In this document: in pieces, positions 2,982-26,426 of the stretch
Numbering within the stretch: the first letter of the stretch is position 1
Layout: each line of letters begins with the position of its first letter
Source of the DNA: a virus
Strand: one strand, 5' to 3'
Virus record (IMG/VR): IMGVR_UViG_3300046007_002562
Location: 1-36,967 of that record
DNA length: 36,967 nucleotides
Position numbers and translations under genes: made by a program
The notes under the pieces: model-generated
What the model was told of the DNA's origin: nothing
Seen by the model: the letters and a program-made list of their open reading frames with translations, nothing else
Database searches by the model: none

Positions 2982-3704
2982 ATGTTAAAAACCGTAGTCA
3001 CTGTTGGTGGTGGTACATCGGGCTTAACGTATAAGGGTACTTGGAATGCCAATACCAACTCGCCTACGCTTACTTCCAGCACTGGTGTCAACGGTGATTA
3101 TTATGTTGTTAATGTTGCTGGCAGCACAGATTTAGATGGCATTACGGATTGGCAGATTGGTGATTGGGCAATCTTTAATGGTACAGTCTGGCAAAAGATA
3201 GATCAGTCTCCGGCTGTGCAGTCTGTCAATGGTCAGACGGGTGCAGTAGTTTTGACTGCGGCTAATGTTGGTGCTGCGGCAAATACAGTCAATGTTATTG
3301 CTGGTACTGGATTAGCTGGTGGTGGTGCGCTTACTGGCAACGTCACGATAGATTTAGCAAACACAGCAGTTGCAGCCGGAAGCTATGGCAGCGCAACAAA
3401 TGTTTCGCAAATTACCGTTGATGCGCAAGGCAGGATTACAAGTGCCACTAATGTTGCCATTGCTATTTCTACTGCCAATGTGTCTGGCCTTGGCACAATG
3501 GCAACGCAGAATGCCAATGCCGTAGCAATTACTGGCGGTGATGCAGTCTTGGCAAATGTTACTGTCACTGCTAACCTGTACGCCAACTTATCAACAAGCA
3601 ATACGGCAGCAATGCCAGACCCAAGCCTCCCGCTTGCCCCTGAAGGTTATGTCACAATCATCGTTAATGGAACAGCAAAAAAAATCCCCTATTACGGAGT
3701 CTGA
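2982..3704 (+). CDS. Tail fibre-like protein
   Basis: A 240-residue protein with typical fibre segments: an N-terminal module (about residues 17-75) of the GDYYVV...GDWAIFNGTVWQKID type seen in phage fibres, a linker SVNGQTGAVVLTAANVGA, and a second module with GTGL-x-GGG-x-TG and the motif QITVDAQGRITSATN (about 135-150) common in fibre hubs. The C-terminus is short and hydrophobic (VTIIVNGTAKKIPYYGV). SD AAAGGAAT lies upstream of the ATG. It could be a side fibre or a fibre anchor. Sequence alone does not decide this. Confidence 0.7.
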   Translation: MLKTVVTVGGGTSGLTYKGTWNANTNSPTLTSSTGVNGDYYVVNVAGSTDLDGITDWQIGDWAIFNGTVWQKIDQSPAVQSVNGQTGAVVLTAANVGAAANTVNVIAGTGLAGGGALTGNVTIDLANTAVAAGSYGSATNVSQITVDAQGRITSATNVAIAISTANVSGLGTMATQNANAVAITGGDAVLANVTVTANLYANLSTSNTAAMPDPSLPLAPEGYVTIIVNGTAKKIPYYGV

Positions 3705-3706
3705 AA

Positions 3707-3928
3707 GTGGAGCCTCAGTTTCTGATCAACATTCTTTTTGCAGCCGCAGGAGCCGCTTTTGGGTGGATACTGAACAGTATCTCTCGCTCAATCGTGAGGA
3801 TCGAGGACAGAATCTCCGAAATGCCGATGATTTACGTCAACCGTGACGATTACCGGGCTGACATACACGACATAAAAGGCATGCTAGGCAAAATCTTTGA
3901 CCGCCTAGACCAAAAGGCTGACAGATGA
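3707..3928 (+). CDS. Small membrane-anchored protein (DUF7201-like; possible spanin/holin accessory)
   Basis: A 73-residue protein with one N-terminal hydrophobic segment (about residues 5-23, FLINILFAAAGAAFGWIL) followed by a charged helical tail with YVNRDDYRADIHDIKGMLG and IFDRLDQKAD. Such single-anchor, coiled-tail proteins are common in phages and are usually left unnamed. It starts at GTG 3707, supported by GGAG about 8 nt upstream. Its stop overlaps the next ATG (ATGA). No Rz/Rz1 pair is recognised elsewhere, so an inner-membrane spanin role is possible, but the protein is short for that. Confidence 0.65.
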   Translation: MEPQFLINILFAAAGAAFGWILNSISRSIVRIEDRISEMPMIYVNRDDYRADIHDIKGMLGKIFDRLDQKADR

Positions 3929-4272
3929 GCCTTAACATGGATGCACTGGCTACCCCGATCTTTGGGGAGCCGGATAGCCTCCGTGACTTTCTCTTCGAGA
4001 ATGGCATACAGCACCAAGTCTTTTGGGAAAGACTGACGGATGCTGGCTTCTATGTGCCACGCTACCCCATCATTGATGCAGACCCGCAGGACTTGGACGA
4101 TTGGCTGTTAATACACCAACAAGAACACCAAGCCTACGCCACTATTCTTAACTTGAATGACCCCTTTAATCTGCTAGACTTGGATTTCAACCAAGAGGAT
4201 GACTTTTACGATTGGGTAAATAGTCATTTGTTAATTCATGAGCAGATTGCACGGACTTTGGGGGTGACATGA
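3925..4272 (+). CDS. Conserved unknown protein with two W-x(n)-H-x-x-H helical repeats
   Basis: A 115-residue acidic, mostly helical protein of unrecognised family. Two related segments are visible, DDWLLIHQQEHQAYATILNL (about 57-76) and YDWVNSHLLIHEQIARTLGV (about 95-114), each with an aromatic-rich start and paired histidines that could bind a metal. It overlaps its neighbours by ATGA on both sides, so its translation is coupled to the acyl carrier protein downstream. That arrangement suggests it works with the ACP/ketosynthase pair, but no function can be read from the sequence. Confidence 0.7.
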   Translation: MSLNMDALATPIFGEPDSLRDFLFENGIQHQVFWERLTDAGFYVPRYPIIDADPQDLDDWLLIHQQEHQAYATILNLNDPFNLLDLDFNQEDDFYDWVNSHLLIHEQIARTLGVT

Positions 4273-4562
4273 TTTCCGATGAGGACTTCTTGCGGTTGTT
4301 CAATGTGGCTATGGCGCTGGCTAAACCTGTCGGAAAAGCGACACTGCAAGCAGAATCAATAGATGTGCGCTTTCAAGACATTGAAGTTGATAGCTTGGAT
4401 TTATTGATTATTGGCATGTATCTTTGCGATGCCTTTGCTGTGCCAGAAGAGAAAGGCAAGGAGATGAGGCCAGAAACTGTTGGGCAAATGAAAGAGTTTC
4501 TGGTGGCTAATGCCGGAATTCCGACAATTGATGTGGATGCTGTGTTGCAGGTGATGGTATGA
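4269..4562 (+). CDS. Acyl carrier protein-like protein
   Basis: A 97-residue acidic helical protein with the carrier-protein signature VDSLDLL: Asp41-Ser42-Leu43, with Ser42 the expected 4'-phosphopantetheine site. A later ETVGQMKEFL stretch (about 69-78) corresponds to the TVGDLVxxI helix of ACPs. Length and order fit the ACP fold with slightly longer ends. No phosphopantetheinyl transferase is seen in the window, so loading would depend on the host enzyme. It overlaps the upstream gene and the ketosynthase gene by ATGA at both ends, a strong sign that the three are made together. The family call is made from motifs, not a search. Confidence 0.75.
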   Translation: MISDEDFLRLFNVAMALAKPVGKATLQAESIDVRFQDIEVDSLDLLIIGMYLCDAFAVPEEKGKEMRPETVGQMKEFLVANAGIPTIDVDAVLQVMV

Positions 4563-5683
4563 GCCTATTTATTACGCATGGACATACCGCATCCAACACC
4601 GAAACCACCCTGTTTGAAGACATATTGCACCCACAGCGCACACATTTCATACCGGAAAGCTACCAAGGTACAAAACATGGTTTCAAATATACACCGCATA
4701 ACCTAGCCAACATGGTGTTAGCCCCTGCAACGGTAGAGTGGTTAAAGCAAAACCCTTCCCTTGGCAAAACCGCATTTATTCTAGCTGCTGGCAACTCTCA
4801 TTTTGCTGGCATTAATCCCAAAGATAACCAAACTCATACCAAACTCCATTACATCTACAAGTTCCTACCCTTTACGTTGACGCAAGTCATGGCTGGCAGG
4901 CTGGCAAACATGATCTGTGAGCCTGATTACATAGCCACAGACGCCTCTGCCTGCGCTTCTAGCCTGAAAACCCTGATGGACTGCCTGATGCTTGAGGCAT
5001 TTGGCTTTACGCGCTTCCTGATCCTTACCGTTGAGGATGCGGTATCCAACTCTGTGCTGCAATTCTTTGGTGACTCTGGCGCTTCTCTGACGCTGGCAGA
5101 GGAACAGGCCAAGGGCATCGTGCCAAGCGCTTTTGATAGCAAGAATGGCGGGTTCTATGTAGGTCAAGGCGCAGCATTTACCGTGCTGATGGCTGAAGGC
5201 GAGGTCAATTACTATGGCCTAACCCCCAAAGCTAGGTTGGTAGGGGCGTATCACGCTGCCGAGAAATGGAACAATGCCATAGGCCAGCGACCAGACGGAA
5301 AAGGCTATACCGACGCTATTGAAGGAGCCATGATGTATGGCGGCGTGTTCGGTCAAGACATTACCATTGTGAAAACACATGGCACTGGCACAGAATCAAA
5401 TAACTTGGCAGAACAGGCTGCGTTGTTGACTACTTTGGATAGCTTTGTGGCAACGTCATTTAAGCCAAAAATAGGTCACACAATGGGCGCTTCGGGCTTG
5501 CTAGAAACGCTACTTTTGCTTGACAATCTGGTTTATGGTGTTGTACCTGCTATTCCTAACCGGACGGAAAAAGACAGCGTTTTCTTGTCCGAGGACTGCG
5601 AGACTCCTGATGGGCTGATCTTAAGTCTTGCTGCTGGAATGGGGAATGTTTATACGGCGGCAATCTTCGACCCGGTGAGGTGA
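4559..5683 (+). CDS. Beta-ketoacyl-ACP synthase-like (thiolase-fold condensing enzyme)
   Basis: A 374-residue protein with all canonical ketosynthase catalytic positions. The nucleophile Cys132 lies in DASACASS, His274 in KTHGTGTESNN, and Lys302 and His307 in KPKIGHTMGASG. A Gly-rich C-terminal loop (AAGMGN, about 358-363) also matches the family. It is somewhat shorter than FabF/FabB (about 400-415). Known family members condense malonyl-ACP with an acyl chain held on the active-site Cys. Here the partner is probably the ACP encoded immediately upstream (ATGA overlap). It lies between tail-fibre and ejection-protein genes, so it would be made late in infection. No other fatty-acid or polyketide enzyme is encoded, so the product is unknown. 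Confidence 0.85.
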   Translation: MSLFITHGHTASNTETTLFEDILHPQRTHFIPESYQGTKHGFKYTPHNLANMVLAPATVEWLKQNPSLGKTAFILAAGNSHFAGINPKDNQTHTKLHYIYKFLPFTLTQVMAGRLANMICEPDYIATDASACASSLKTLMDCLMLEAFGFTRFLILTVEDAVSNSVLQFFGDSGASLTLAEEQAKGIVPSAFDSKNGGFYVGQGAAFTVLMAEGEVNYYGLTPKARLVGAYHAAEKWNNAIGQRPDGKGYTDAIEGAMMYGGVFGQDITIVKTHGTGTESNNLAEQAALLTTLDSFVATSFKPKIGHTMGASGLLETLLLLDNLVYGVVPAIPNRTEKDSVFLSEDCETPDGLILSLAAGMGNVYTAAIFDPVR

Positions 5684-5685
5684 TC

Positions 5686-6135
5686 ATGGTTCAAATGGTG
5701 GACAGCCAGCAACAAGAGCTAAGTCCAGAAGACATTATTGCTATCGCAGCAATGAATACGGATGCTAATGTTGATCGTGCAAAAGCCATTGCTATGATCA
5801 ATGCTGAACTACAAATCGATGATACCTTGTTTATTCGGCAAGGCAATACGTTATTCATCATTCACAAAGCAGCGCCCGGTGTGGGTTGGTTTCGTGCATT
5901 GAATGCTGATACCGCACCAAACTTCTTAGCTAATAGCATGGAATTTATCAAAGCCTGTTACAAGTTAGGCTTTGACACAATGGCATCAACTTTCCGTGAT
6001 CCTACCATTCTGTCTGTTTTCCGTTATATCTCAAAGAACCCACCAAATCCTGAGATGGGTTACAACGTGCGAAAAACAGCAGACGGTGGTTTCATGGCGA
6101 CTGTTAAAACGGGGCCAGCGCGGGGGGTTGCATAA
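5686..6135 (+). CDS. Unknown protein, possibly GNAT acyltransferase-like
   Basis: A 149-residue protein. ATG 5686 is preferred over the in-frame GTG 5680 because GAGG lies 5 nt upstream of it. The pattern (a helix-rich start, a strand pair FIRQGNTLFIIHK, then GVGWFRALNAD and a helix with FIKACYKLGFDTMASTFRD) is reminiscent of GNAT folds found among podovirus internal proteins, but the acetyl-CoA binding loop is not clear. It follows the ketosynthase by 2 nt and precedes the ejection protein genes, so it may belong with either. Confidence in function is low. Confidence 0.6.
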   Translation: MVQMVDSQQQELSPEDIIAIAAMNTDANVDRAKAIAMINAELQIDDTLFIRQGNTLFIIHKAAPGVGWFRALNADTAPNFLANSMEFIKACYKLGFDTMASTFRDPTILSVFRYISKNPPNPEMGYNVRKTADGGFMATVKTGPARGVA

Positions 6136-8516
6136 TGGGTGCTGTCGTTGATTTTATTGCAGACGTAGGTGGCGCAGTAGTTGGCGCTATAGGTGATGTT
6201 GTTGAGGCGGTTGGCGACGTTGTTTCTGATGTTGCTGATGCCGTTGGTGAAGTAATTAGTTATGTTGCTGAAAACCCTTTAGTTGTTGCCGTAGCAATAG
6301 CTGCACCTTATGCGGTAGGGGCTGTTGGCACAGCCGTAGGCGCATCAAGCACGGCTATCAGTCTTGCTACTGCACCTGTTACAGCCGCTTCAATTACGGC
6401 TGTGCAAGGCGGTGATTTAGGAGATATTGGTCGAGCTGCGGTTGGTGCGTTTGTTGGTAACGTAGCAGGCGGGTTTGTTGGACAGCAAGTAGGCAAGGCA
6501 ATTGGCGCAAGTAATGGTGCGCAAGCAGCACTAGCAAGTGCGGCAGGCGGCGCGACTGCGGGTGCTACATCTGCATTGGCTACGGGTGGAGATGTTGGAG
6601 CATCAGCATTGTTAGGTGGTGCTGGCAGCTTGGGTGCAAACCTTGTTCGTACTCAAGTTGCAGAACAGTTTGGTCTTGATCCTCGCGGAAGAGTTGCTGA
6701 AGTTGCGGCTGATATTGGTGAAGCGGCGGGTAGAACTGCGGTTGGTGGCAATCTTTCGGAAGAATTAGCTGGCGCTGCATTCTCTACAGCGCAGCGTGAA
6801 GGCGACATTGCAATCAAAGGATTGAGGACACCTTCTGATGCTGACATTGCGCAAGCCATTGCTCAACCTAATCGTACTGCGCAAAGCACTGCGGTTGAAA
6901 TCAATGATGATATTTACAAAGCCATCACCGATAGAAAAAATGCAGTAGAGGTTGCGTTCCAAGGGCCGGTTACGCCTGATCAAATTCAGCAATTGGCGCG
7001 TAATGCTTCGCTCGACCTGATTGAAACATGGAAGGCAAAAGCTGCTGCTGACCCTGCATTTGCTAGAGAACTAGCCAAGCCTGAAAACTTGAATGCTATT
7101 CGTACCGCAGGCTTAGTTGAACTTGCTACTGCGGTAACTACTCTAACATCTGTAGCTGCTGGCGGTCTAGGCGCAACAGCATTGGCTACTGGACAACTTG
7201 CGGCACCGGGTTCAGAGGTATTGCGTCAAGCTATGCAGGAAAACCCCATGCTTGGCGCTATGGGTGGTGATGCTTCCTTTGCTGGTGCGTTGATTGATGT
7301 TTGGGCTAATACGCCAACTCGTACAACGGTTGATACAACACCCACATTGCCTGAAGTTGTAGTCACTGCGCCTAGAATTGAGCCTTCATTAAATCCTCAA
7401 GAGTATAGCCAAGCAGTAAGACGTTATATTGGCGACTTTGCAGACATGGCTGCGGCAAAGGCACCCGTAACTACAGAAGTGGTTCGTGTTGCCCAAACAC
7501 TTGGTATTACAAATGAACAAGCTGCGGCATTGAGAAACTCCCCGATCTTTGATTACCTGACAAATCAATCAGGTCAGTCAAAAGAAATTGATATTGAAAC
7601 ATTGCCATTAAGAGAACGTGCGCTAATTGAGTATGCCGCTGCCAATCGTCAAGGTGGTGTTAGCCTTAATGAAGATTTTAACGTCATCATTCCCGGCAAA
7701 AATGCAGCAACAGCTACTGCTGATGCTCGTAGAATTGCGACTCAAACTGCAACGCAAAGACAGGCGACTGAAGCGGAAACAACGCTTGAAGGTCGCCGTT
7801 CCGCTACTCAACCTGCTGGCGCTACTCGCGCCCAAACGCAAACTAGAACAACTCCTATTACTGGAACTCTGGCTGATACAGCTACCCGTACTGGAACTCA
7901 AACACAAGCTGGAACTCAAACTGGAACAAGAACCGAAACCGGCACTCAAACAACTGCCGGTACACAAACAGGCACAGGTACTCAGACGGGTACGCAGACA
8001 AGCACTGGCACACAAACAGAGCTTGGGCCAAGAACTGAAACTCAAGGTCAAACTGTTACGCCTGCCCGTACTGACACTACAACTGGCACAACCACAATAG
8101 ATGGAACTACGCCAAGAATTCCAGTTTTGCCAGATGTAACTGACATGACGGGCAAAGATTTGCTTGATCGTGCTGGTGGAGAAGAGGCTGGTGAAGAAGG
8201 TGGTACGCAACCGCCGCTGATCGAACAACCAATTGATCTTTCTGAAATGAGTACAGAAGATTTGATTGAGTATCTAAATCAGCAGTTTCCGCTTACCACT
8301 GAAGAAACAGCAACTGAAACAGAGCTTCCGATTGACATTCGCCCTGACGACACAAGGATTGACACAAGGCGGTCTATTAGTCCTCGCGTTGTTGGGGTTG
8401 CGCCAGTTGCAGCAATTGTTGGTGAGAAAGAACCGATCTTCGGTGGTGAACCCGATCCACAGCAAGATGTTTGGAACGTACGATCTTTGCGCCTTAGAAG
8501 GGCATTAGGACTTTGA
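6135..8516 (+). CDS. Large Ala/Gly-rich virion protein with TQTGT repeats (ejection/internal protein candidate)
   Basis: A 793-residue protein. Residues 1-45 are a valine-rich amphipathic heptad-like region, and residues about 50-200 are very Ala/Gly-rich with several hydrophobic stretches that could insert in a membrane. The middle is helical. Residues about 540-660 are a low-complexity Thr/Gln/Gly tract of repeated TGTQT units, followed by an acidic region and a basic tail (RSLRLRRALGL). The gene opens a block of four large proteins that occupies the place of internal virion/DNA-ejection proteins in podoviruses. A role in forming a translocation channel is inference from composition and position. 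Confidence 0.65.
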   Translation: MGAVVDFIADVGGAVVGAIGDVVEAVGDVVSDVADAVGEVISYVAENPLVVAVAIAAPYAVGAVGTAVGASSTAISLATAPVTAASITAVQGGDLGDIGRAAVGAFVGNVAGGFVGQQVGKAIGASNGAQAALASAAGGATAGATSALATGGDVGASALLGGAGSLGANLVRTQVAEQFGLDPRGRVAEVAADIGEAAGRTAVGGNLSEELAGAAFSTAQREGDIAIKGLRTPSDADIAQAIAQPNRTAQSTAVEINDDIYKAITDRKNAVEVAFQGPVTPDQIQQLARNASLDLIETWKAKAAADPAFARELAKPENLNAIRTAGLVELATAVTTLTSVAAGGLGATALATGQLAAPGSEVLRQAMQENPMLGAMGGDASFAGALIDVWANTPTRTTVDTTPTLPEVVVTAPRIEPSLNPQEYSQAVRRYIGDFADMAAAKAPVTTEVVRVAQTLGITNEQAAALRNSPIFDYLTNQSGQSKEIDIETLPLRERALIEYAAANRQGGVSLNEDFNVIIPGKNAATATADARRIATQTATQRQATEAETTLEGRRSATQPAGATRAQTQTRTTPITGTLADTATRTGTQTQAGTQTGTRTETGTQTTAGTQTGTGTQTGTQTSTGTQTELGPRTETQGQTVTPARTDTTTGTTTIDGTTPRIPVLPDVTDMTGKDLLDRAGGEEAGEEGGTQPPLIEQPIDLSEMSTEDLIEYLNQQFPLTTEETATETELPIDIRPDDTRIDTRRSISPRVVGVAPVAAIVGEKEPIFGGEPDPQQDVWNVRSLRLRRALGL

Positions 8517-8517
8517 C

Positions 8518-9636
8518 ATGAGAATACTTGAGATGATTGCTGGTAGTCGTGGCATGGGTGATGCTCGTTCTATGGGTGAGATGCTACGTCGTATGGGTAG
8601 GCGTGGCGACACCATGTTGGCACACATTACACCTGAAGAGGCTGACATGCTGATGAAGGCTGGTGGAGCAGGAACAGTCAATCCTGATACCGGCCTGCCT
8701 GAGTTTTATATTGCTGCGCGAGATAAGGTTGAAAGAGTGCCTGAAGTTGACATGGGCGACATTGAGTCATTAAACCCTTATAGTTTTGCGCCAGATACAC
8801 CTGAAATTAAACTCACTCGTCCAGATCAAACAGTTTCCTCTGATTTTAGACAAGAGCGAATCAATCCTGATATTGATTTTGCATTTGGCACTGGTCGCAC
8901 ATATCAACAAGAGCCGCGCCTTTATCCAGAGGTGGACTTTACGCCAAGACCTGAGCGACAGGTTTTCCCAACTGATTTTGCGACACAAAGACTTCCTCAA
9001 TATGAGGCAGTTGATTTTGGTCGCATTCCAGAATTTAGAGAATTACAAGACCAAACCGCCATCAGCGAACCAAGCCTTGCGCAACGTGCTGAAACTGGAT
9101 TGAAAGAATTGCAAGACGTATTGAATCGTTATCCCAACCTAACTCGCGCAGGTACAGCCGGTGCAAGCATTCTGGCACAAGCCTTGATGTTTAATCAGGC
9201 CAATAAAGCCATGAGGCGTGACATTGAATCTACTCGCGCAGCCGCTGAACCTTTCCGTCAAGCACAAGCAGAGGCTATGGGTCGTGCTACTGGTGAGGGT
9301 TTGACACCTGAACAACAGCAAGAACTTGAGATTGCTCAAGCCCGTGCGCGTGAAGGATTAGGAGCTAGAGGCATACCAACAGGTAGTGCAGCCGCAGGCA
9401 TTTTGGCAGGTCAAGCGCGTCGTGCGCGTAGTCTTGCAAGACAAGAAAGTTTTGCTGAAGCCTTACGCTTGGCAAACATTGCTGATCAGTATGACCGTCG
9501 CGCATTGGAGATGGAGTTGGCGCGTGATCAGCAGTTGGCACAGTTGTTTGCTGGCATCCTAGGCCGTGAAGTACAGCAAGCACAGCGTACCCAAGCGCCT
9601 GTAACCAATCAGACAACAGCAGCCCGTGCTACCTAA
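8518..9636 (+). CDS. Putative internal virion / ejection protein
   Basis: A 372-residue protein. The N-terminal motif HITPEEADMLMKAGGAG-TVNPDTGLPEFY (about residues 37-67) recurs in phage virion proteins. Residues 90-190 are an acidic, aromatic, Pro-rich linker with repeated (V/I)DF units. The last third is a long charged helix (EQQQELEIAQARAREGLGAR...), probably coiled coil, with a small-residue turn GIPTGSAAAGILAG. It starts 1 nt after the previous stop and lies inside the ejection-protein block. The role is inferred from context. Confidence 0.6.
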   Translation: MRILEMIAGSRGMGDARSMGEMLRRMGRRGDTMLAHITPEEADMLMKAGGAGTVNPDTGLPEFYIAARDKVERVPEVDMGDIESLNPYSFAPDTPEIKLTRPDQTVSSDFRQERINPDIDFAFGTGRTYQQEPRLYPEVDFTPRPERQVFPTDFATQRLPQYEAVDFGRIPEFRELQDQTAISEPSLAQRAETGLKELQDVLNRYPNLTRAGTAGASILAQALMFNQANKAMRRDIESTRAAAEPFRQAQAEAMGRATGEGLTPEQQQELEIAQARAREGLGARGIPTGSAAAGILAGQARRARSLARQESFAEALRLANIADQYDRRALEMELARDQQLAQLFAGILGREVQQAQRTQAPVTNQTTAARAT

Positions 9637-9648
9637 CGTGAGGTAAAT

Positions 9649-11019
9649 ATGGCAACTCAAGCATTAAGTGATGCGCTAGGCACAACTCCTTCTTTGATGC
9701 GCGGTTTTGGTCAACAAGGCAGCATGAAGCAACGCGCTGACTTTGGGCGTCAGAAACTGCCTGAAGTGTTTGAAGAAGGCGCAAGAGCCGAAGAGCAAGC
9801 AGCTAGATCGCAGTTTGACATTGAGCAAGGCCAGATTGGTAAACAAGCTGCCGCAGAACGTGACTTAGCAGCCAAGTCTCGCGCAGCAGCTACCGAGATG
9901 GAAGCTGGCATGCAAGGGTATCAAACTTTTGAAGCGCCGCAGATTAGTGCATCAGACTATGCCAAGAATGCTGGCATGCGTTTACTGTCAGCTTTGGTCG
10001 TTGGTGGCATTGGTGGTGCTTCCGCAAGAGCGCAGTTAGTTGCTATTCGTGAAATGCAGGATGCTGAAGACCGTGTGCAGCGTGAGCGCTTTGATGCAGC
10101 AAAGCTAAAGTTTGATCAGGAAGACAAGAAGCGCCAAGAGCATAACGCTATGCTCAAAGATCGTTTCGAGCGCATGCTGAACTTGCTGTCTAAGGATCGG
10201 AACGCTGCAATGGTGGAAGCCAAGCTGATTGAGGCTTCTACTGGCAATGGCTTGATTTCTGCACAGCTACGCAAAGGAAACTATCAGAAAGCCTATGAGT
10301 TATTTACAAAAGCTATTGAGGCTTCTGACAAAGCTGATGCTGAGTTAGCAAAGCAACAGGCAATGTTGGCTAGACAGATTGCGGTCAAACAAACAGTTGG
10401 TGGTGGTACGGTTGGTCGTGGTGGTGGCGGCGGCAGAATTTTGCCAGCAAAAGAAGTAAATTCAATTGAAGGATTAAATTCATTATCTGAAGCGCTTAAA
10501 AAACTTGAAAGAGATTTTAAGCCTCAGTTTGCTGGCCTTGGTGTTTTTGGTCTTGGTGCTGAGTTAGAACTTGAGGCAAATCGCAGACTTGGTGGAAAAG
10601 ATGCGCAAGAAGCTATTTCGTGGTGGTCGCGCTATCAAAGACTACAAGCTCCTAACCGTCACGCTTTGTATGGCGCAACGCTTACCGGAAACGAATTAAA
10701 GAATTATCAGAGTTTTACTGCCAAGCCTTCTGATAGTCCAGAAACAGTTAGAACTATGTTGAAAGATCAGTCAGACTATTCAGACGCGACTGCGCGGCAA
10801 AAGGCAATGCAATTTGATTCTGCGGGTTATCGTGTGCCAGAAATTAGAGTTCAAAACTTTGAGCAAACTTATGGCGGTGGAACACCAACTTCCGCAACGC
10901 CTGCGGCTAGAGTTGCCACAAAAGCAGATGTTGCAGAGACAGCAAAAGCCAACCGAATGACTGAAGCGCAAGCTAAAGCAGAACTTCGTAAACGTGGTTA
11001 CACGATTGAGGGTGAGTGA
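9649..11019 (+). CDS. Putative internal virion protein, coiled coil
   Basis: A 456-residue protein rich in Ala, Gln, Glu and Lys. Two long helical stretches (about residues 25-95 and 125-245) flank a hydrophobic Gly-rich segment (about 107-122, RLLSALVVGGIGGASA). A Gly-rich linker (GGGTVGRGGGGG, about 250-262) leads to a C-terminal helical domain with WWSRYQRLQAPNRHALYGATLTG. SD GAGG lies upstream of the ATG. Size and position match a podovirus internal core or ejection protein. There is no enzymatic motif, and no lytic transglycosylase signature is seen. Confidence 0.6.
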   Translation: MATQALSDALGTTPSLMRGFGQQGSMKQRADFGRQKLPEVFEEGARAEEQAARSQFDIEQGQIGKQAAAERDLAAKSRAAATEMEAGMQGYQTFEAPQISASDYAKNAGMRLLSALVVGGIGGASARAQLVAIREMQDAEDRVQRERFDAAKLKFDQEDKKRQEHNAMLKDRFERMLNLLSKDRNAAMVEAKLIEASTGNGLISAQLRKGNYQKAYELFTKAIEASDKADAELAKQQAMLARQIAVKQTVGGGTVGRGGGGGRILPAKEVNSIEGLNSLSEALKKLERDFKPQFAGLGVFGLGAELELEANRRLGGKDAQEAISWWSRYQRLQAPNRHALYGATLTGNELKNYQSFTAKPSDSPETVRTMLKDQSDYSDATARQKAMQFDSAGYRVPEIRVQNFEQTYGGGTPTSATPAARVATKADVAETAKANRMTEAQAKAELRKRGYTIEGE

Positions 11020-13043
11020 TGGCTGGTCGAAATTTACTTGCTGATGAGCCTCAAGCGGCTGGCAAAAATTTGTTAGCGGAAGAGCCAAAAGAAACAAGAA
11101 GCAGCGGATTTATTCCGGCTTCTACTGATGTAGTTAATCGCGCATTAGTTGCTGGCACTTTGGGTGCGCCAGCAGATATTGGTGCGCTTTTACTACGTCC
11201 TTTTGGATATAAACAAGAACCAATTTTAGGTTCTGAATACATTGGTCGAAAAATGGAAGAGGCGGGATTTATTTCGCCAACGCGCAGACCGGTTGCTGAA
11301 TTACTGACTAGCTTTGCACCGCTAGGTGTAACTGGTCTTGCAGCAGGCGGGAGGTTTGGTGCCGATCTTATAAGAAAAAGTTTAGGACGAGGCGTCGCTT
11401 CAGAAGCGGAAGCGGTTAAAAAAGCTACTGCTGGAAAATATGAAGAACCAATTGCAGAGGCAACACGGCAAAGAGAACAAGCATCAAGAGTAATTTCACA
11501 AATGGAAAGGCAACCATCAGTTGCCGCTGAGCGTGCAGCCGTTGCTCCATTAACAGAAGCACAACGCATTGCCCAACTGCAAGCAGAATTGCGCCAGCCT
11601 GTGCGCGAAGCTGCTGGTGCTAGACGAGTAAAAGCAGAACAAACTGCCGCTGAAGCCGCTAGAGTTGAAGAACTAGCGCGTCAAAGAACGGCTGCTGCTG
11701 AACAAGCCGTAAATGCAATTGAGCAACGCATGATGCAAATGCCAACCATGAATGCAGAACAGTTTGGCGGCTTGCTAAGAAATGCAACTCAAACCATGAA
11801 TCAAAGGTTGTTATCCGCAAGATCAGAAGGGTCTGGCCTTAACTCTATTATTACAAACGCTGGTGACGATTTAATTGTTGATACTGCGCAGTTAATTGAA
11901 CGCGCTAAAGAAATTAAAAAACGGACAAGAAACCCACAAGTTGCAGCAATGATGGATGAAGTCCAAGCGCTTGCGAAAACAGATAAGGAAACGGCGTTAA
12001 GCTTGTACTCTGCTGATTCGTTGCGCAAGTATCTGTCAAAAGACATTATCAATAAGTTTTTTCCTCAAACTGGTGCTGACAAAGAGGTTCTAAGCGGATT
12101 AAAGGCTTTGCGTGGGGCGCTTATTACCAAGACGCCGCAACAATACAGAGAAGGATTGGGCAAGTTTAGTGAATTATCACGCCCGTTGGACATAGTAGAG
12201 CGCCAAGGTTCGTTAAAACGAGTGCTTGATATTGACCCAATTAGCACCGCTGAAAGACTTACTGAGGCAGAAGTTGTCGGGGAAATTATTAGAAAGGCAA
12301 ACCGTGGGAATCTTGTTTTTTCCAGATTGCTTGAAGTAAGCCCGTCGTTAAAAGATTCTGCGCGACTTTACTTTACCCAAGATTTGTTTGCAAAAGGCGT
12401 TGTTCCTTCTGAGGCTTCTGTAAGAACTTGGCTAACCGCAAACCAAAGATCGTTACAACAACTTGGTTTGTATGACGAATTTAAGAATTTGCGCACAGCT
12501 AGAGAAACTGCACAACGCGCAGTGGATGACGCAAAGCTAACAGAAAAGGCTGTTGGTGCGGTAGCAAAAGAAGCTAAAGCTGGTGAAGCTGCGGCTGAAA
12601 AGTTAAGCAGAGAAAGTGAGCGCCGGTTGCAAGAAGCATTAAAGACAACTGCTGGCCCAACGCAAAGGCCGGGAGAAACACTGGCTGAAGCATTGAGAAG
12701 GACAAGGACGGGAGAAAAACCAGCGCCGATTCAAACATTTATCCAGACTAGAGAAAAACAAAGTGATGCCATCAGGTCGTTGACTAAGATGCAAGATGAT
12801 GTAAATGCGGCGAGAGATACAAAAGAGGTTGTTGCGGCTGTAACCAGATCAGCAACCGATTTGTTGAATCGTGGAATTATTGATGATGCTGGATATAGAA
12901 CAATGATTCGTGACGTTGCCAGACTTGAAAAGATGGAGGACGCTAAGAATCAATCTCGGAAGATTTTGGCATTTTTTGGTGGTGTACTTGGCATAGGCTG
13001 GTTGGGTCGTCGAGGTATTGAATCAATAACGGAGGGTAAATAA
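11019..13043 (+). CDS. Putative internal virion protein, long coiled coil
   Basis: A 674-residue protein. ATG 11019 is chosen over GTG 11016: it gives a TGATG junction with the previous stop and has GAGG 7 nt upstream. The N-terminus repeats a NLLA(D/E)EP unit twice (about residues 4-22). A hydrophobic Gly-rich stretch (about 95-120) is followed by hundreds of residues of Ala/Glu/Arg/Gln-rich helix. A last hydrophobic segment (ILAFFGGVLGIGWLG, about 648-662) lies near the C-terminus. Such proteins are typical of the ejected core of short-tailed phages. The assignment rests on context and composition. Confidence 0.6.
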   Translation: MAGRNLLADEPQAAGKNLLAEEPKETRSSGFIPASTDVVNRALVAGTLGAPADIGALLLRPFGYKQEPILGSEYIGRKMEEAGFISPTRRPVAELLTSFAPLGVTGLAAGGRFGADLIRKSLGRGVASEAEAVKKATAGKYEEPIAEATRQREQASRVISQMERQPSVAAERAAVAPLTEAQRIAQLQAELRQPVREAAGARRVKAEQTAAEAARVEELARQRTAAAEQAVNAIEQRMMQMPTMNAEQFGGLLRNATQTMNQRLLSARSEGSGLNSIITNAGDDLIVDTAQLIERAKEIKKRTRNPQVAAMMDEVQALAKTDKETALSLYSADSLRKYLSKDIINKFFPQTGADKEVLSGLKALRGALITKTPQQYREGLGKFSELSRPLDIVERQGSLKRVLDIDPISTAERLTEAEVVGEIIRKANRGNLVFSRLLEVSPSLKDSARLYFTQDLFAKGVVPSEASVRTWLTANQRSLQQLGLYDEFKNLRTARETAQRAVDDAKLTEKAVGAVAKEAKAGEAAAEKLSRESERRLQEALKTTAGPTQRPGETLAEALRRTRTGEKPAPIQTFIQTREKQSDAIRSLTKMQDDVNAARDTKEVVAAVTRSATDLLNRGIIDDAGYRTMIRDVARLEKMEDAKNQSRKILAFFGGVLGIGWLGRRGIESITEGK

Positions 13044-14412: not shown

Positions 14413-14819
14413 TGGCTGCTGATCCCATCACTGCGATTCTAAACATTGGCAGCAAAGTCATTGACCGAGTGTGGCCTGATCCGGCACAAGCGGCTGCTGC
14501 CAAATTAGAATTATTTAAGCTACAGCAAAGTGGTGAGCTTCAGCAAATTGTTGGTCAGCTAGAGATAAACAAGATTGAGGCGGGTAATGCCTCTGTCTTT
14601 GTTTCCGGCTGGCGTCCTTTCATTGGTTGGATGTGCGGTGCTGCTTGCGCGTGGAACTGGATTGGCATAAGCATTGCCAAGACAATTGCTGCATTTGCGC
14701 ATTACGACATTAATCTTGCTCCGGCAGATTTGTCTGAGATGTTGCCAATTTTGATGGGTATGCTTGGCTTAGGCGCTTTGCGTACCGTTGAAAAAATACA
14801 AGGCGTTGCTGCAAAATGA
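14412..14819 (+). CDS. Holin (3TM, gene-transfer-agent type)
   Basis: A 135-residue protein. After a helical N-terminus with WPDPAQAAAAKLEL (about residues 21-34), it has the signature ASVFVSGWRPFIGWMCGAACAW (about 60-81) of the 3TM holin family, then hydrophobic segments about 83-97 and 112-124. The family forms lesions in the inner membrane that release the endolysin. The M15 peptidase gene follows with an ATGA overlap, the usual lysis-cassette arrangement. Confidence 0.85.
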   Translation: MAADPITAILNIGSKVIDRVWPDPAQAAAAKLELFKLQQSGELQQIVGQLEINKIEAGNASVFVSGWRPFIGWMCGAACAWNWIGISIAKTIAAFAHYDINLAPADLSEMLPILMGMLGLGALRTVEKIQGVAAK

Positions 14820-15235
14820 TTAACAGTCGCAGTCTGGATGAGTTGTTGCCACAAGTTCGTGAACGAGTAGAGAAGTTTTTGGCTGCTTGTAAGGCTGAAG
14901 GAATTGATTTACTGGTAACTTCAACGTATCGTGATAACCAAAGCCAAGAGGCGCTCTATGCGCAAGGTAGAACAAAGCCGGGTGTCAAAGTTACTAATGC
15001 ACGGGCTGGTCAGTCTTTCCACAATTATCGCTGTGCTGTGGATGTTGTGCCAATGATGAATGGTAAGCCAGTGTGGAATGTTAAAGACCCGGTGTGGCAG
15101 CGTGTTGGCGCACTAGGTAAGGCTGCTGGTTTGGAGTGGGCGGGTGATTGGACAAGGTTTAAGGAGTATGCGCACTTCCAATATACCGGCGGCTTGACCT
15201 TGGCACAGTTACAAAAGGGAGTGCAAATTGCCTAA
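14816..15235 (+). CDS. Endolysin, M15-family peptidase
   Basis: A 139-residue single-domain enzyme of the VanY/L-Ala-D-Glu peptidase type. Visible motifs are STYR (Arg39 region), GQSFHNYRCAVDVVP with zinc ligands His69 and Asp76, and FKEYAHFQY with catalytic Glu117 and zinc ligand His120. Length matches phage T5-type M15 endolysins. There is no cell-wall-binding domain and no signal peptide, so export depends on the holin encoded just upstream. It is expected to cleave peptide stems of Gram-negative peptidoglycan. Confidence 0.88.
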   Translation: MINSRSLDELLPQVRERVEKFLAACKAEGIDLLVTSTYRDNQSQEALYAQGRTKPGVKVTNARAGQSFHNYRCAVDVVPMMNGKPVWNVKDPVWQRVGALGKAAGLEWAGDWTRFKEYAHFQYTGGLTLAQLQKGVQIA

Positions 15236-16154: not shown

Positions 16155-16206
16155 GCCTAGTCTTCTCCCTAGGCTTTCCCCCGTCTAATCAGCGGGGGTT
16201 TTTTTT
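16155..16206 (+). terminator. Tandem-hairpin rho-independent terminator
   Basis: Hairpin 1 has arms GCCTAG (16155-16160) and CTAGGC (16169-16174). Hairpin 2 has arms CCCCCG (16178-16183) and CGGGGG (16193-16198) followed by eight T (16199-16206). It closes the rightward late operon. The T tract runs into the stop codon of the convergent glycosyltransferase gene. Confidence 0.88.
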
Positions 16207-16933
16207 ACTCACTCGGCAGCAAGCCACCTTCAAACAGATACGTTCCCATGTGACCTAAACGGCACCAAGGTGCTGCATGTATCTTGCCGCCAATCTTGCG
16301 CCACTGATGGCAAAAGAAATAATCCTCTGACAACAGCCGCTTCGTCTCAGGATCAATAGGATCAAGATAGAACCCATAGATTTCCTGACCCACCATAAAG
16401 TTCATATCACTGACAAACGTCTTTGTATGTGGCTTCAGTTGCTCAAACACATCACGCTTGATCAGCATAAAGCCAGTGCCAATGGCTGATACTTCGCACG
16501 GCTGATCCACCGGCACAGTAATAGCAGGATCATTTGTTAGCAAGTTGACTACAAAACTACCTGTGTAATTCTTTAAGTCATCTTTACCTTCCAACGCAGC
16601 TTGCTTGACCGTATGCCAATTGATTTCCTTTTTTGGATAGATGCCGCCTATCACATCAACGTCAGCCTCAAGCATTTTGATAGCATCGTCGGGGTTAAAG
16701 GCAATGTCAGCGTCAATCCAGAAAAGGTAATCAGCATCACCTTGCAAGAAAGTGTGCGTCATATTGCATCGTGCGCGTGTTACCAGTGATTCATTGAACA
16801 TCAACGACACTGACGTTTTGTAACCATGCTGGTTCAGCGCCCCAATCAAACCGATCAATGACTGTGCGTAAACGCCAGTACACTGACCGCCATACATGGG
16901 CGTGGCAATGAATACATGCTTCTGTTTTTCCAT
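16205..16933 (-). CDS. GT-A fold glycosyltransferase
   Basis: A 242-residue protein with N-terminal HVFIATPMYGG, a nucleotide-sugar binding region, and the metal-binding acidic motif FWIDADIAF (Asp74/Asp76) preceded by a NESLVTRARC helix, typical of family-2-like GT-A enzymes in phages. Later, IGTGFMLIKRDVF and a C-terminal EDYFFCHQWRKIGG region fit the acceptor side. It probably glycosylates virion or host surface components. It is the last leftward gene, and its stop overlaps the T tract of the opposing terminator. Confidence 0.75.
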   Translation of the reverse strand: MEKQKHVFIATPMYGGQCTGVYAQSLIGLIGALNQHGYKTSVSLMFNESLVTRARCNMTHTFLQGDADYLFWIDADIAFNPDDAIKMLEADVDVIGGIYPKKEINWHTVKQAALEGKDDLKNYTGSFVVNLLTNDPAITVPVDQPCEVSAIGTGFMLIKRDVFEQLKPHTKTFVSDMNFMVGQEIYGFYLDPIDPETKRLLSEDYFFCHQWRKIGGKIHAAPWCRLGHMGTYLFEGGLLPSE

Positions 16934-18066: not shown

Positions 18067-18915
18067 TTATCCCTTTTTTATCAGGTGATCCAGCCTTTCC
18101 TTCACTTGCTTCACCGCCTTAGTCCAGACCTCGAACAGCACAGGCTTATCAGCTTCTACCATGCCAAGCACAAAGTCATTAGCTGACTCGAGCGCCGTGA
18201 TCTTGGATAGCTTCTCGGCTGCATTTAGCTTCTGGCTTTCCATAATCTGATCAACCATTGCCAAGTAACCATCGACAAACTCTTCATCGTTGGCATAGAA
18301 CTTGTAGGCTTTATCAGTGTTTGGCAGCATGAAAGCTACGCCTGACATTGCAGGTTCGACCTTAGCTTCTACTTCGATGGGTGCTGGCGCTTCAGTCACT
18401 ACCATAGGTGTGGTTCGCGCTTCACTAATGGTTTCAACTTCAGTCTCGTCGAGCATTCCAAGTCCACAATGTGCAAGAACCGACCGCCGTATCGCTTTCG
18501 TAGTCGCCTTAAGGATGGCATTAGCCAATCTCTCGCCGACTTGGTTCCCAACATCCACTGCTCCTTGATTTTCTGAAACTCTCCCATCACTGCCTGTGAC
18601 TCGGACGGAGACAATGTAAATTCCATCCACACGTTCCCGATGTGTAATCTGAGTGGAAAGTTTGTGAAGAGCGCAGAGTTGTTGAGTAGCGCTCGCGTTC
18701 GCGTAGAGGATTTGTTTGCCATTTAAGGTCAGTAGGTCAAAGGGTTTGGCGGCAGGATCAAGGCCAACTTGCTTGCAGCGGTAAAGATAGTATTGTTTCT
18801 TTTGATCTTCGTTCAAACCAGACAAGTCACCACGCAACACAATGGATGACTGAATAGCAGGATCAAGGGTTGCGACTGCCGAAGAATCGCCTGACATACT
18901 GACTACGTTACTCAT
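18067..18915 (-). CDS. Single-strand annealing protein (RecT/Rad52-superfamily-like)
   Basis: A 282-residue protein. The core (about residues 20-165) has DQKKQYYLYRCKQVGLDPAA, KPFDLLTLNGKQILYANAS, THRERVDGIYIVSVRVTGSD and AILKATTKAIRRSVLAHCGLG, a layout seen in phage recombination proteins near exonucleases. The C-terminal part is an acidic helical tail. It would load on single strands made by the YqaJ exonuclease. ATG 18915 follows GGGGGTGA; an ATG at 18927 adds four residues. It overlaps the upstream gene by 8 nt. Confidence 0.72.
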   Translation of the reverse strand: MSNVVSMSGDSSAVATLDPAIQSSIVLRGDLSGLNEDQKKQYYLYRCKQVGLDPAAKPFDLLTLNGKQILYANASATQQLCALHKLSTQITHRERVDGIYIVSVRVTGSDGRVSENQGAVDVGNQVGERLANAILKATTKAIRRSVLAHCGLGMLDETEVETISEARTTPMVVTEAPAPIEVEAKVEPAMSGVAFMLPNTDKAYKFYANDEEFVDGYLAMVDQIMESQKLNAAEKLSKITALESANDFVLGMVEADKPVLFEVWTKAVKQVKERLDHLIKKG

Positions 18916-19186
18916 CTTCACCCCCATCTCTAGCTTTCATCATTGCGTCTGCATACTCATAGGCTGCAAGAACAACATCCTCTTTATCATCCAATGCTTT
19001 ATCAGGATTCCAGAGCAAGGCTTGCATAGCCTTTGCCGCAAAGTAATCGCGCAAGTCCATCCTAATTGCTTTCTCTATTGGTTCTGTAAGCGATGCAAAT
19101 AAAAGCATCAACTCTTCGCGCACCTCGTCGTTTTGGTAAAGTCGCACGGCAAGCGCGGCTAAATCCTCGATCTCTTTCTCTTCCAT
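18908..19186 (-). CDS. Conserved small acidic phage protein
   Basis: A 92-residue helical acidic protein. The motif DLRDYFAAKAMQALL, then VVLAAYEYADAMMKARDG, is very common in small proteins encoded in phage replication and recombination regions. Its function is unknown. It has AGGAG before the ATG and lies between the exonuclease and annealing protein genes, so a recombination accessory role is possible. Confidence 0.72.
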   Translation of the reverse strand: MEEKEIEDLAALAVRLYQNDEVREELMLLFASLTEPIEKAIRMDLRDYFAAKAMQALLWNPDKALDDKEDVVLAAYEYADAMMKARDGGEDE

Positions 19187-19196
19187 TTGTATTCTC

Positions 19197-20090
19197 CTAT
19201 TTCAGTAGAAAGCGACGAGCGCCGGGTTGTTCAACGACAAATTTTTCGTACATCTCAGGCATGGCATTGCGGAACAAGTCTTTGCTGAATGACTTGGTAG
19301 TCTTGCTGGCTTTCCAAGTGGCAAGGATTCTGCCATCGTAGGTAGCAAGCTGGCTTGACTCCATCATGTAACCCTGAATCTTGGCTACCAGCGCATCCTC
19401 TTGCGCTTCCAAGGCTTTGCGTTGTGTCTTAATGACTGACAGCATCTCGCAGGCTTGTTCGAGTTCAGCGGTAGCTAACAGGCTGCTGCCGTTATCCTCT
19501 TTGTACACCAGCTTGGCAGCGTCACCCATTGTGTTGGGATCAAAGTTTCTGGCTTGTATCCTGCCCCAAAACTCTGCCATTTCTCTGGCATGTAAATCCC
19601 ACTGATCAGGGCTAAAGGTTTGCGGATAGTGGCAGATTTCCTGACCACCAAAGCACACGACCAGCACTACATTAGGGGTGTTGTGGACTAGGGATTCGTG
19701 CAGGCACTGGACGCGATAGCCTACGTCAATGTCTGTGCTGCCATCGTCGCCATACTTCTTGCGCTGATGAATTCCTAGGTTCTTGACTTCGTAGAGTGTC
19801 TGCCCATCCTCTGATATGTAATCAAAGTGGGAAGCTAGGAAGGTATGTTTAGGATGATGCAGGGCGTAGTCAGCATCTTTAAAGTTAATGCGCTTACGCC
19901 GCGCAAACTCTTTCATAATGGGTTCTTGCATGACTAAACCCATTTGTACTGCTTCGACGTCAGACAGATCGTCTAACGGTTTGACGCCAATCTTCTCGGC
20001 ATAAACTTCACCGCCTCGGCCTTCAACGAATCGTCGTGCATCGTTAGACCATAGTGCCTTGTTTCTTACTTCGGGAGAAAAATCACTCAT
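19197..20090 (-). CDS. YqaJ-like exonuclease (lambda-exonuclease fold)
   Basis: A 297-residue protein with the YqaJ viral recombinase pattern: RRFVEGRGGEVYAEKIGV, GLVMQEPIMKEF (Glu56), LASHFDYIS (Asp90) and LYEVKNLG (Glu101-Val-Lys103), the PD-(D/E)XK active site. A C-terminal coiled segment follows. The enzyme resects double-strand ends 5' to 3' and works with the annealing protein encoded two genes downstream. The start has the AGGGGCTACTATG leader shared by other leftward genes. Confidence 0.83.
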   Translation of the reverse strand: MSDFSPEVRNKALWSNDARRFVEGRGGEVYAEKIGVKPLDDLSDVEAVQMGLVMQEPIMKEFARRKRINFKDADYALHHPKHTFLASHFDYISEDGQTLYEVKNLGIHQRKKYGDDGSTDIDVGYRVQCLHESLVHNTPNVVLVVCFGGQEICHYPQTFSPDQWDLHAREMAEFWGRIQARNFDPNTMGDAAKLVYKEDNGSSLLATAELEQACEMLSVIKTQRKALEAQEDALVAKIQGYMMESSQLATYDGRILATWKASKTTKSFSKDLFRNAMPEMYEKFVVEQPGARRFLLK

Positions 20091-21750: not shown

Positions 21751-22016
21751 TATTTTGAGAGATAGAGTTTGAACTAGAAACCGAGTTCGACCCTGTGGAT
21801 AAGTCTGTGGATAACTTGTGGATTTCTTTTTTGCGACAAGCTCTCCTATATAAATATATCTATACGTTTACTACAGCTATACGGTTACTATAGCTATACG
21901 GTTACTACAGATACAGAAAACATATAGCTATATGTTGGACTATAGCTATACGGGTACTATAGCTATAGGAGAGATGGGGTAAACGTATATTAAAAAAAAT
22001 CTATCTCTCAAAAATA
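21751..22016. repeat. Inverted repeat flanking the DnaA boxes and iterons
   Basis: TATTTTGAGAGATAG at 21751-21765 and its near-perfect complement CTATCTCTCAAAAATA at 22001-22016 (one extra A/T) bracket the DnaA boxes and main iteron array, about 235 bp apart. Confidence 0.65.
21794..21825. promoter_or_regulatory. Three DnaA-type boxes
   Basis: Two perfect DnaA boxes (TGTGGATAA, complement TTATCCACA) at 21794-21802 and 21806-21814, and a variant TGTGGATTT at 21817-21825, in the same orientation, spaced 12 and 11 bp. This suggests host DnaA is recruited for replication. Confidence 0.75.
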
Positions 22017-22071
22017 TAGGAAAAGCGTTTACTACAACTATACGGTTACTCAGTCTGTAGAAACCGTATAG
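21860..22071. repeat. 17-bp iterons
   Basis: Three adjacent direct repeats of CTATACGKTTACTAYAG at 21860-21876, 21877-21893 and 21894-21910. Further copies are at 21946-21962 (CTATACGGGTACTATAG) and 22038-22053 (one base shorter), an inverted copy at 22055-22071, and partial inverted and direct halves at 21976-21989 and 22026-22037. The surrounding DNA is very AT-rich. Confidence 0.8.
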
Positions 22072-22308
22072 CTATAGGAAAGTTCGGACGCACAATGCGA
22101 AATGCGCGTGGATGATTTCTGTTTTTTTTGGCAGATTCAAATGTCAAGAGAATAGACCACCAAAACTTGCCAACCTGACTACAAACTGATTTTGCATACT
22201 GGTTTTTTGAAAAGCGGATTGGCGGCAAGCGGCAAGAATCGGCGGCAAGGCCGTTTTTAGGCCGCTGGCAGCGTTTTATTTTCAGGGTAAGGGTAAGTTA
22301 AGGGTACA

Positions 22309-23231: not shown

Positions 23232-24122
23232 TTATGCTGCTATTGCTTCGCTGATCTCGCCGTGTTCATCGGCGTTTGTTGCTGTCAGATAATCCATTGC
23301 TTGCTGTGCTTTTGCACTTGCTGAGAGAATGAATTTCTTATCATTCCGCAAGGCTTGTAGCCAATTCTCAATATATCCGGCATGGCGCAAGTCGCCATCA
23401 ATACCGCATTTTGCGCACAGCATAGCAGCGCCCAATTCTGCTACTAATTCCTCGAAAGCATAATTCTCACTGCCGAATCGTGCCGGAGTGATTCGCTTTA
23501 GCCGTGAATCATGGCCCGAAGCATGCACTGATTCATGTAGCAAAGTAGCGTAATAGTTCTCGCGAGAATCAAATGCCGCCATCGGTGGCATCACGATTGC
23601 ATCGGTACTAGGCCGGAAATAGGCACTGTCACCGGCATGCGTTAAACCACCGGCTAGATTCAATCGGGAAACAATGTCATCAGCAGCAGCGCAAGAATTC
23701 CAATCTACTTCAGGCAGTTCAGGCACTGCTGGTAAGGTTAAGCCTTCACATTGTTCAATATTGAAAACGTAATAATGCTTAATGAAAGCATAGGCGCTTG
23801 TGACTGTTTCGCCTTTGTCGCCTATTGTTTCCTTGCGGTGAATATTCCAGTAAACCACTGGAATACCCTTTTGCTCCGCTTTAACTGATCCACCTAGTTG
23901 CTGCGCTTGCTTAAAAGTAACGTAATAGGGAACCGCAAACGGCTGCATGCCAAGCCAGAAGTGATTAACACCACGATACACAGTGCCACTAGCAGGATTA
24001 AATGGCATGCCTTCACCCGGCATGCCTTTAAGAGTACGCCAAGGTTTAACCCAAGGTGTAGCGCCTTTTTCTAGTTCAGAAATGATGCGGTCAGTAATGA
24101 TCTGTGCGATGTCGGTTTTCAT
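23232..24122 (-). CDS. ardC: ArdC-type antirestriction protein
   Basis: A 296-residue protein with the two ArdC parts: an N-terminal ssDNA-binding domain (about residues 1-125; GATPWVKPW, YRGVNHFWL, YYVTFKQAQQLGGSV, IPVVYW) and a C-terminal zincin-like metallopeptidase domain with HESVHASGH (His196-Glu197-x-x-His200) and EELVAELGAAMLC. Plasmid ArdC protects incoming single-stranded DNA from host restriction. Here it would act early after DNA entry. The leader AAAAGGGGCTATCA precedes the ATG. Confidence 0.85.
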   Translation of the reverse strand: MKTDIAQIITDRIISELEKGATPWVKPWRTLKGMPGEGMPFNPASGTVYRGVNHFWLGMQPFAVPYYVTFKQAQQLGGSVKAEQKGIPVVYWNIHRKETIGDKGETVTSAYAFIKHYYVFNIEQCEGLTLPAVPELPEVDWNSCAAADDIVSRLNLAGGLTHAGDSAYFRPSTDAIVMPPMAAFDSRENYYATLLHESVHASGHDSRLKRITPARFGSENYAFEELVAELGAAMLCAKCGIDGDLRHAGYIENWLQALRNDKKFILSASAKAQQAMDYLTATNADEHGEISEAIAA

Positions 24123-25401: not shown

Positions 25402-25642
25402 AGACAAGTATCAGGAAGAGTTGCTGTTATCGCGCCGTGTCTTGCGGGATGAGATGAGGAAGGCGATAGCAGCAGACAGCGCTAAAGCTAAGCGCGAGTT
25501 GGTGGCGACTTGGAAGCAGGTGTTTAAGCCAGAGGTGGTTCGGGAGTTGTTAGCTTGTGCCAAGGACTACGAGGCGCGGTACCGGATTGCTAATTGGAAC
25601 TTGGAAGGCTTTGAGACGGAGAGGCGCAGTGCAAAACGATAA
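25388..25642 (+). CDS. Small helical protein
   Basis: An 84-residue protein from ATG 25388, which overlaps the regulator by 14 nt. It is highly charged and helical (SAEDKYQEELLLSRRVLRDE, then PEVVRELLACAKDYEARYRI). The frame extends upstream, but that part lies inside the regulator gene. No family is recognised. A small terminase subunit is sometimes found here in other phages, but no HTH signature is visible. Confidence 0.55.
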   Translation: MKSAEDKYQEELLLSRRVLRDEMRKAIAADSAKAKRELVATWKQVFKPEVVRELLACAKDYEARYRIANWNLEGFETERRSAKR

Positions 25643-26426
25643 GTACAAAGATATTACGGTGGTGGCGATTTATGGCGATGGCAGGGGTGCGGCTGCGGTG
25701 CCTGCGATTAGAAGGACGGTTGCCGCATTGCCGGGATCACAACCGTTGCTGATTACGAATGTTGAGATTGATGTGACATTCGTGCCGCAGAAGATACTGC
25801 CAGCAAGATTGGATTACTTTGGCTACAGCGAGTTCGTGATGTACGCGCTGCATAACTATATCGACACTGAGTACGCCCTGATTGTGCAGCACGATGGATG
25901 GGCATTGGATAAAGACAATTGGAATGATGAGTGGTTGCAGTATGACTATGTGGGTGGCCTAACCCATGCAGGGTTACTCGCTAATGGCGAGTTTCATAAT
26001 TTTTATCAGTGGTGGGGGAAGGGTGAAGCAACCGTAGTGCAGAACGGTGGCTTCTCCTTGCGTAGTAAAAAGTTCTTGCAAGCTCCTAGCAAGTACGGTG
26101 TGATGCGGCGTCAGATGCCAGACCCCATCATGATGAATGAGGACATCCAGTTGACCTGTATCTTGAGGAAGGACTTGGAGAGGCTTGGCATCAAGTTTGC
26201 ACCGGATGATGTGGCAAAGTATTTTTCCTTCGAGCATATTGGCCCATGCCATGACGGGATGGATTTAGCCAAGATATTTGGTCATCACTGCCGCTTTAGG
26301 CAGTTACTGTCTAATGGCGAGATGCTCTGGAAGCTGTCGAGAGAACAGATGAAAGAGATGTACGGAGAAGAAGCGGTGTACGAATTGTTTGCCAACCATT
26401 ACGGATACACCATTCATGCAATTTGA
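25629..26426 (+). CDS. DUF5672-type glycosyltransferase
   Basis: A 265-residue protein with the DUF5672 pattern: ITVVAIYGDGRG, YFGYSEFVMYALHNYIDTEY, ALIVQHDGWAL, DEWLQYDYVGGLTHAG, VVQNGGFSLRSKKFL, and MMNEDIQLTC (the acidic NED motif). The family is glycosyltransferase-like. GTG 25629 is chosen with GAGAGG 5 nt upstream; it overlaps the previous gene by 14 nt. It may modify virion or cell-surface sugars. Its place directly before terL is unusual. Confidence 0.78.
   Translation: MQNDKYKDITVVAIYGDGRGAAAVPAIRRTVAALPGSQPLLITNVEIDVTFVPQKILPARLDYFGYSEFVMYALHNYIDTEYALIVQHDGWALDKDNWNDEWLQYDYVGGLTHAGLLANGEFHNFYQWWGKGEATVVQNGGFSLRSKKFLQAPSKYGVMRRQMPDPIMMNEDIQLTCILRKDLERLGIKFAPDDVAKYFSFEHIGPCHDGMDLAKIFGHHCRFRQLLSNGEMLWKLSREQMKEMYGEEAVYELFANHYGYTIHAI

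Follow-up and report, generated by a model that had tools for sequence, protein, structure and literature searches.

A conserved acyl carrier protein, ketosynthase and GNAT-fold gene trio before the presumed ejection genes of uncultured phages: a possible route to virion protein acylation

Three consecutive genes, encoding an acyl carrier protein (ACP), a ketosynthase (KS) and a protein with a predicted GNAT acyltransferase fold, directly precede the presumed ejection-protein genes in the 36,967-base IMG/VR virus record analysed here over its full length (the window). The module, observed as genes, model-based folds, invariant residues, selection and gene order, is tentatively read as a dedicated late acylation pathway that acts on an amine acceptor, probably a virion ejection protein (probability roughly 0.38). 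The trio itself, the GNAT fold, the apparently private ACP and the genomic position speak for such a pathway; the separability of the ACP-KS pair, the missing CoA loop of the GNAT-fold protein and the fact that we infer the chemistry limit confidence in it.

The ACP gene (4269–4562, plus strand) encodes 97 aa with a predicted phosphopantetheine site at Ser42 (DSLD), and the KS gene (4559–5683, plus) encodes a FabF-like condensing enzyme of a phage clade, 374 aa long, with Cys132, His274, Lys302 and His307. A preliminary description of this DNA had reported both genes, and the coordinates, reading frames and ATGA overlap that it gave proved exact. The ACP-KS pair is real, but a third conserved gene (5680–6135, plus; 151 aa from GTG, 149 aa from the first ATG), which encodes the GNAT-fold protein and belongs to the same set, had been overlooked. 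Just upstream, and overlapping the ACP start, lies a gene for a 115-aa protein with no assigned function (3925–4272, plus), of which a similar gene occurs in 12/32 loci. On the other side follow the gene for a large presumed ejection or internal virion protein (6135–8516, plus; similar gene in 28/32 loci) and three genes for presumed ejection-block proteins, at 8518–9636 (plus; 12/32 loci), 9649–11019 (plus; 7/32 loci) and 11016–13043 (plus). In gene order the last corresponds to the SLT transglycosylase gene of the uncultured phage MW202545, and it is from the presence of that gene in the same block, together with position, that the genes before 13043 are read as encoding ejection proteins. 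The product of 6135–8516 has no family match in Pfam or PHROG, and that of 11016–13043 has no meaningful one. The location of the pair among tail and presumed ejection genes, as first described, was borne out, the ejection role being assigned from position; late expression of the trio is likewise deduced from where it lies.

Elsewhere in the window, the minus strand encodes an ArdC-type anti-restriction protein with a zincin-like peptidase domain (23232–24122; PF08401, PF18818), a glycosyltransferase-like protein (16205–16933; phrog_1574, with weak glycosyltransferase and Anp1 matches) and a recombination pair consisting of a weakly Rad52-like protein (18067–18927) and a RecE/YqaJ-like exonuclease (19197–20090). 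A DUF5672 gene lies on the plus strand (25557–26426). A cluster of 37-base direct repeats at 21846–22080, with a 48-base imperfect inverted repeat (79% complementary), is perhaps an origin or a regulatory region. Neither Rfam families nor tRNA genes were detected when the window was scanned for them.

Recognition of the ACP depends on the family rather than on the single sequence. Alone, the window ACP gave no Pfam match and reached the PHROG phage ACP family at just E 0.1, and PF00550 was matched by 8 of 23 family members, the window's own ACP not being one of them. By contrast, the family profile retrieved from the PDB solely acyl carrier proteins among the matches listed (best E 2.3e-4). 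Residues D41, S42, D44 and K64 are invariant in 100 distinct ACP sequences (residue counts are given for distinct sequences because contigs recur under several ids), which confirms the DSLD motif and the serine at position 42 (100/100) proposed earlier. In E. coli ACP, acidic residues of helix II contact the partners of its fatty-acid synthase. The phage helix II is acidic at the place of E. coli Glu41 in 0/100 sequences, of Glu47 in 19/100 and of Glu49 in 0/100, retains the acid at position 48 in 91/100, and carries a net charge of -2 as against -5 in a bacterial AcpP. Loss of these acids suggests a private ACP that is probably dedicated mainly to its own partners. It had also been stated that no other fatty-acid synthesis gene accompanies the pair, and this held: neither phosphopantetheinyl transferase genes (PF01648) nor SDR/FabG genes (PF00106) were found in 39 viral or phage records, many of them partial, and the neighbours of the trio in the window gave no PF00106 match. 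Given the absence of the former from the viral records, the host presumably charges the predicted Ser42 site.

The KS matches the Pfam Ketoacyl-synt_C family (PF02801, E 4e-14) and FabF enzymes in the PDB (E 9e-17 as a single sequence, 1.5e-28 as a family profile). Its AlphaFold model (pLDDT 91) resembles condensing enzymes: every one of its top 50 PDB matches is a ketosynthase, and a thiolase, the fold that the preliminary description had named as the one to be guarded against, is not among them. The four catalytic residues that it listed are in place and invariant wherever they could be scored, Cys132 in 108/108 scorable distinct sequences and His274, Lys302 and His307 in 110/110. The enzyme had been called complete. 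This is true of the catalytic quartet, but Pfam fails to detect the N-terminal half (PF00109) in the window KS, and the GFGG gate loop, which contains Phe400, reads AAGMG. At position 359, the equivalent of Phe400 according to a motif alignment made by hand, 105/107 sequences have Ala and 2/107 Ser. Among NCBIfam models AmcF and fabF tie as best match (E 4e-22), both far below their cut-offs, with 79 bits against 325 for AmcF and 75 against 494 for fabF. Compared with FabF (KAS II) and other elongating ketosynthases, the phage KS shares the fold, the Cys-His-His-Lys set and the HGTGT and GH motifs; it is shorter (374 aa, FabF about 410), its gate loop is altered and it branches in a separate deep clade. 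In a tree with 53 cellular-type KS rows, confined to KS genes returned by the scans, the phage KSs form a single phage-only clade (support 100/100) whose stem measures about 3 changes per site. Because one long bacterial branch meets this stem and the comparison set is limited, the clade's placement must be regarded as uncertain, though not its unity. Judged by this phylogeny, the clade is ancient and confined to phages.

The same small gene lies 3' of KS in 32/32 diverse loci. Its product has no meaningful Pfam or PHROG match and no sequence similarity to any family; the AlphaFold model (pLDDT 91.9), however, shows the order of helices and strands found in GNAT acyltransferases, and its best PDB matches are GNATs, the first being RimI (E 7.5e-5, probability 1.00, TM about 0.56). 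A GNAT acyltransferase fold is predicted with high confidence, and a gene of this fold next to the pair points to acyl transfer onto an amine. CoA-dependent GNATs carry a Q/R-x-x-G-x-G/A loop between β4 and α3 that binds acyl-CoA. This loop is missing here, and the same stretch holds about four conserved residues (NADT, NAD-T). Its absence could mean that the donor is something other than CoA or that the protein is inactive, and it also fits an inactive, structural protein resembling gp13 of T7, which the GNAT-fold protein may be.

A single-sequence KS scan of IMG/VR returned 21 loci (81–95% identity), all with an ATGA-linked ACP. An alignment scan matched 599 stretches, 431 of which passed tblastn at E 1e-3, some of them maybe other ketosynthases; at least 80 relatives (the best 80 of the 431) have at least 52% identity. 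Most of the first 21 contigs reappear among these 80, and the same contig recurs under different ids. The only named record with the set is MW202545, an uncultured phage from Manatee Spring (55% identity), and none of the cultured phages in the searched collection carries it. In the deposited MW202545 record the KS gene is given a start 52 codons too far in (L022:19998-20154); its full frame begins at a GTG that overlaps the ACP gene. Among 84,980 species genomes the sole close match was L100 (JAGYJQ010000016.1), a phage contig within a Balneolaceae MAG, whose major capsid protein is 95% identical to that of the window; as a hint to the host it is at best weak. The same scan found no prophage with the module, and since its single close match is a phage contig, a cellular or prophage origin was set aside. 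Also rejected were Enterococcus phage Efs 1-1-1 (L023, OR846615), which carries a bacterial fab operon and is thus probably host DNA under a phage name, other Enterococcus and Listeria 'phage' matches (unannotated records, 23–30% identity) and plasmid matches, which are distant KSs of about 26–32% identity.

Conservation of the trio exceeds that of its surroundings. When 20 window genes were compared by tblastn with MW202545, the trio and one weak match (14816–15235, 26% identity, E 1e-4) were found, and in a 21 kb locus (L056) the trio alone was detectable, so that it is by far the best-conserved stretch between these phages. Median pairwise dN/dS values among ten relatives are 0.17 for ACP, 0.08 for KS and 0.09 for the GNAT-fold gene; by this measure the ACP-KS pair is under strong purifying selection.

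The pair is nevertheless separable from the third gene. The preliminary description had left its occurrence in other phages to homology searches, and these find ACP-KS kept in most related phages: 73 of 80 GNAT loci have both genes, 4 are cut by the contig end and 3 (L238, L265 and L268) have neither nearby. L265 and L268 resemble one lineage. In L238 a 98-base KS scar (3012–3142 of that locus, 81% identity) lies between the upstream gene and GNAT, and the homologue of the 3925–4272 gene stays at the same place; the decayed remnant indicates that the pair was lost there and GNAT remained. These three genomes are partial and could hold the pair elsewhere, although the scar speaks against this for L238. 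The existence of three such loci, one of them scarred, makes the ACP-KS pair accessory to GNAT.

The gene that follows GNAT encodes the candidate acceptor. The product of 6135–8516 is large, has a hydrophobic N-terminal part and begins MGAVV, and the N-terminus of its family reads M-[S/G]-[A/G]-V-V, residue 2 being S or G in 25/27 representatives as against 14% in a crude background set; the representatives are homologous, and shared ancestry inflates the former figure. A tie between this motif and the ACP-KS pair was not supported, as the next gene has the same N-terminal motif in the pair-less loci. GNAT and the motif are thus independent of the pair, unless donors are supplied by the host.

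The acylation pathway proposed here, for which we infer each chemical step as well as the donor, the acceptor and the purpose, would begin with the charging of Ser42 of the phage ACP by a host phosphopantetheinyl transferase. The KS would take an acyl group through Cys132 and either join it by condensation to a malonyl unit that the phage ACP carries, with His274 and His307 as the putative decarboxylation histidines, or merely trans-acylate. The GNAT-fold protein would then move the acyl group from ACP onto an amine, the likeliest acceptor being a neighbouring virion ejection protein such as the 6135–8516 product, from which methionine removal should expose an N-terminal Ser or Gly. The acyl chain would aid the ejection protein in assembling or in entering the host envelope. 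A more specific version, in which an ACP-dependent machine attaches acyl or beta-ketoacyl groups to the DNA-ejection proteins of the phage itself and thereby lets the injected channel insert into the host envelope, is rather doubtful. The earlier interpretation of the pair is partly supported: acylation of a virion protein fits best among the three uses that had been offered.

Parts of this arrangement have counterparts in known systems. The small proteins T7 gp13 (PF11090), P22 gp14 (DUF2824) and the SIO1 GNAT occupy the same slot before the ejection proteins, the last being a GNAT recognised by Pfam (PMC6775973), but no ACP or KS is annotated adjacent to them in the regions compared. Single-sequence comparisons (hhalign, Pfam) gave no match between the GNAT-fold protein and T7 gp13, P22 gp14 or SIO1 gp26.2, and the P22 gp14 homologues among the matches listed, all at least 94% identical, are too alike for a profile. 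Phage-borne ACP and KS genes also occur in Rhodobacteraceae prophages, whose fabG-acpP-fabF operon has been called a set of auxiliary fatty-acid genes (PMC8224337); the module described here differs in its GNAT gene, its position among virion genes and the lack of a detected fabG. In cispentacin biosynthesis AmcF is a KS that performs a single round of extension in concert with one discrete ACP (PMC10698177), but AmcF-AmcB needs the partner AmcG and a ligase to make a small molecule, and such genes were not seen here. Two phage families that carry no functional annotation match the KS (phrog_35856) and the ACP (phrog_28189), and neither entry names the trio.

Among other explanations, the ACP and KS may divert or reshape host acyl chains, with effects on the membrane, lysis timing or superinfection, next to a GNAT-fold protein that is an unrelated morphogenesis neighbour of gp13 type. 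The pair is separable, L238 having lost it and kept GNAT and the next gene, SIO1 has a GNAT gene in this slot, and host FabG, FabZ and FabI could complete the cycle. However, the phage ACP is without most of the acidic helix II surface used by E. coli ACP partners, an adjacency of three genes in 32/32 loci exceeds what a general metabolic gene would need, and a role in membrane remodelling sits oddly with a location among late virion genes, which leaves this explanation unlikely. LuxI-type synthases and FeeM resemble GNATs and draw their acyl groups from ACP. A GNAT fold that adjoins an ACP and is devoid of the CoA loop would suit a synthase of that type, the module then making a small N-acyl product such as an N-acyl amino acid or a lactone-like signal; this is improbable, as the GNAT-fold protein resembles no family in sequence, no receptor or regulator is seen with the trio, and the position is that of a late virion gene.

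The three proteins could also have lost their enzymatic function and been exapted as structural components or chaperones of the ejection machinery. P22 gp14, which lies at the corresponding position, carries the annotation of virion stability factor, and changes affect the KS, in its GFGG loop and its N-terminal half, as well as the CoA loop of GNAT; yet the KS quartet and the ACP serine are invariant in about 100 distinct sequences and a scaffold needs neither, so that this account too is improbable. Least probable by far is an ordinary auxiliary metabolic pair recently acquired from a host fab operon: the operon of the Rhodobacteraceae prophages (PMC8224337) provides a precedent, but the phage KS clade (100/100) is set apart from the 53 cellular-type rows by its stem of about 3 changes per site, no fabG-type SDR occurs in the viral records searched, and the sole close match in species genomes is a phage contig in a MAG.

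The enzyme folds and the presence of ACP or fab genes in phages were already known; what appears new is the KS clade confined to phages, together with the trio placed ahead of the presumed ejection block. No description of either was found in the literature accessible without subscription, and we know of no virion lipidation pathway borne by a bacteriophage itself. ACP and fatty-acid genes of phages were formerly read as stray auxiliary metabolism, and the present module suggests that many uncultured phages chemically modify part of their own virion, or else their host, by a hitherto undescribed route. If the ejection proteins are acylated, the means by which some podovirus-like channels get into membranes would be accounted for, and a function would suggest itself for the little-understood proteins of the gp13/gp14 slot; if they are not, a conserved biosynthetic activity in phage infection would still have been revealed.
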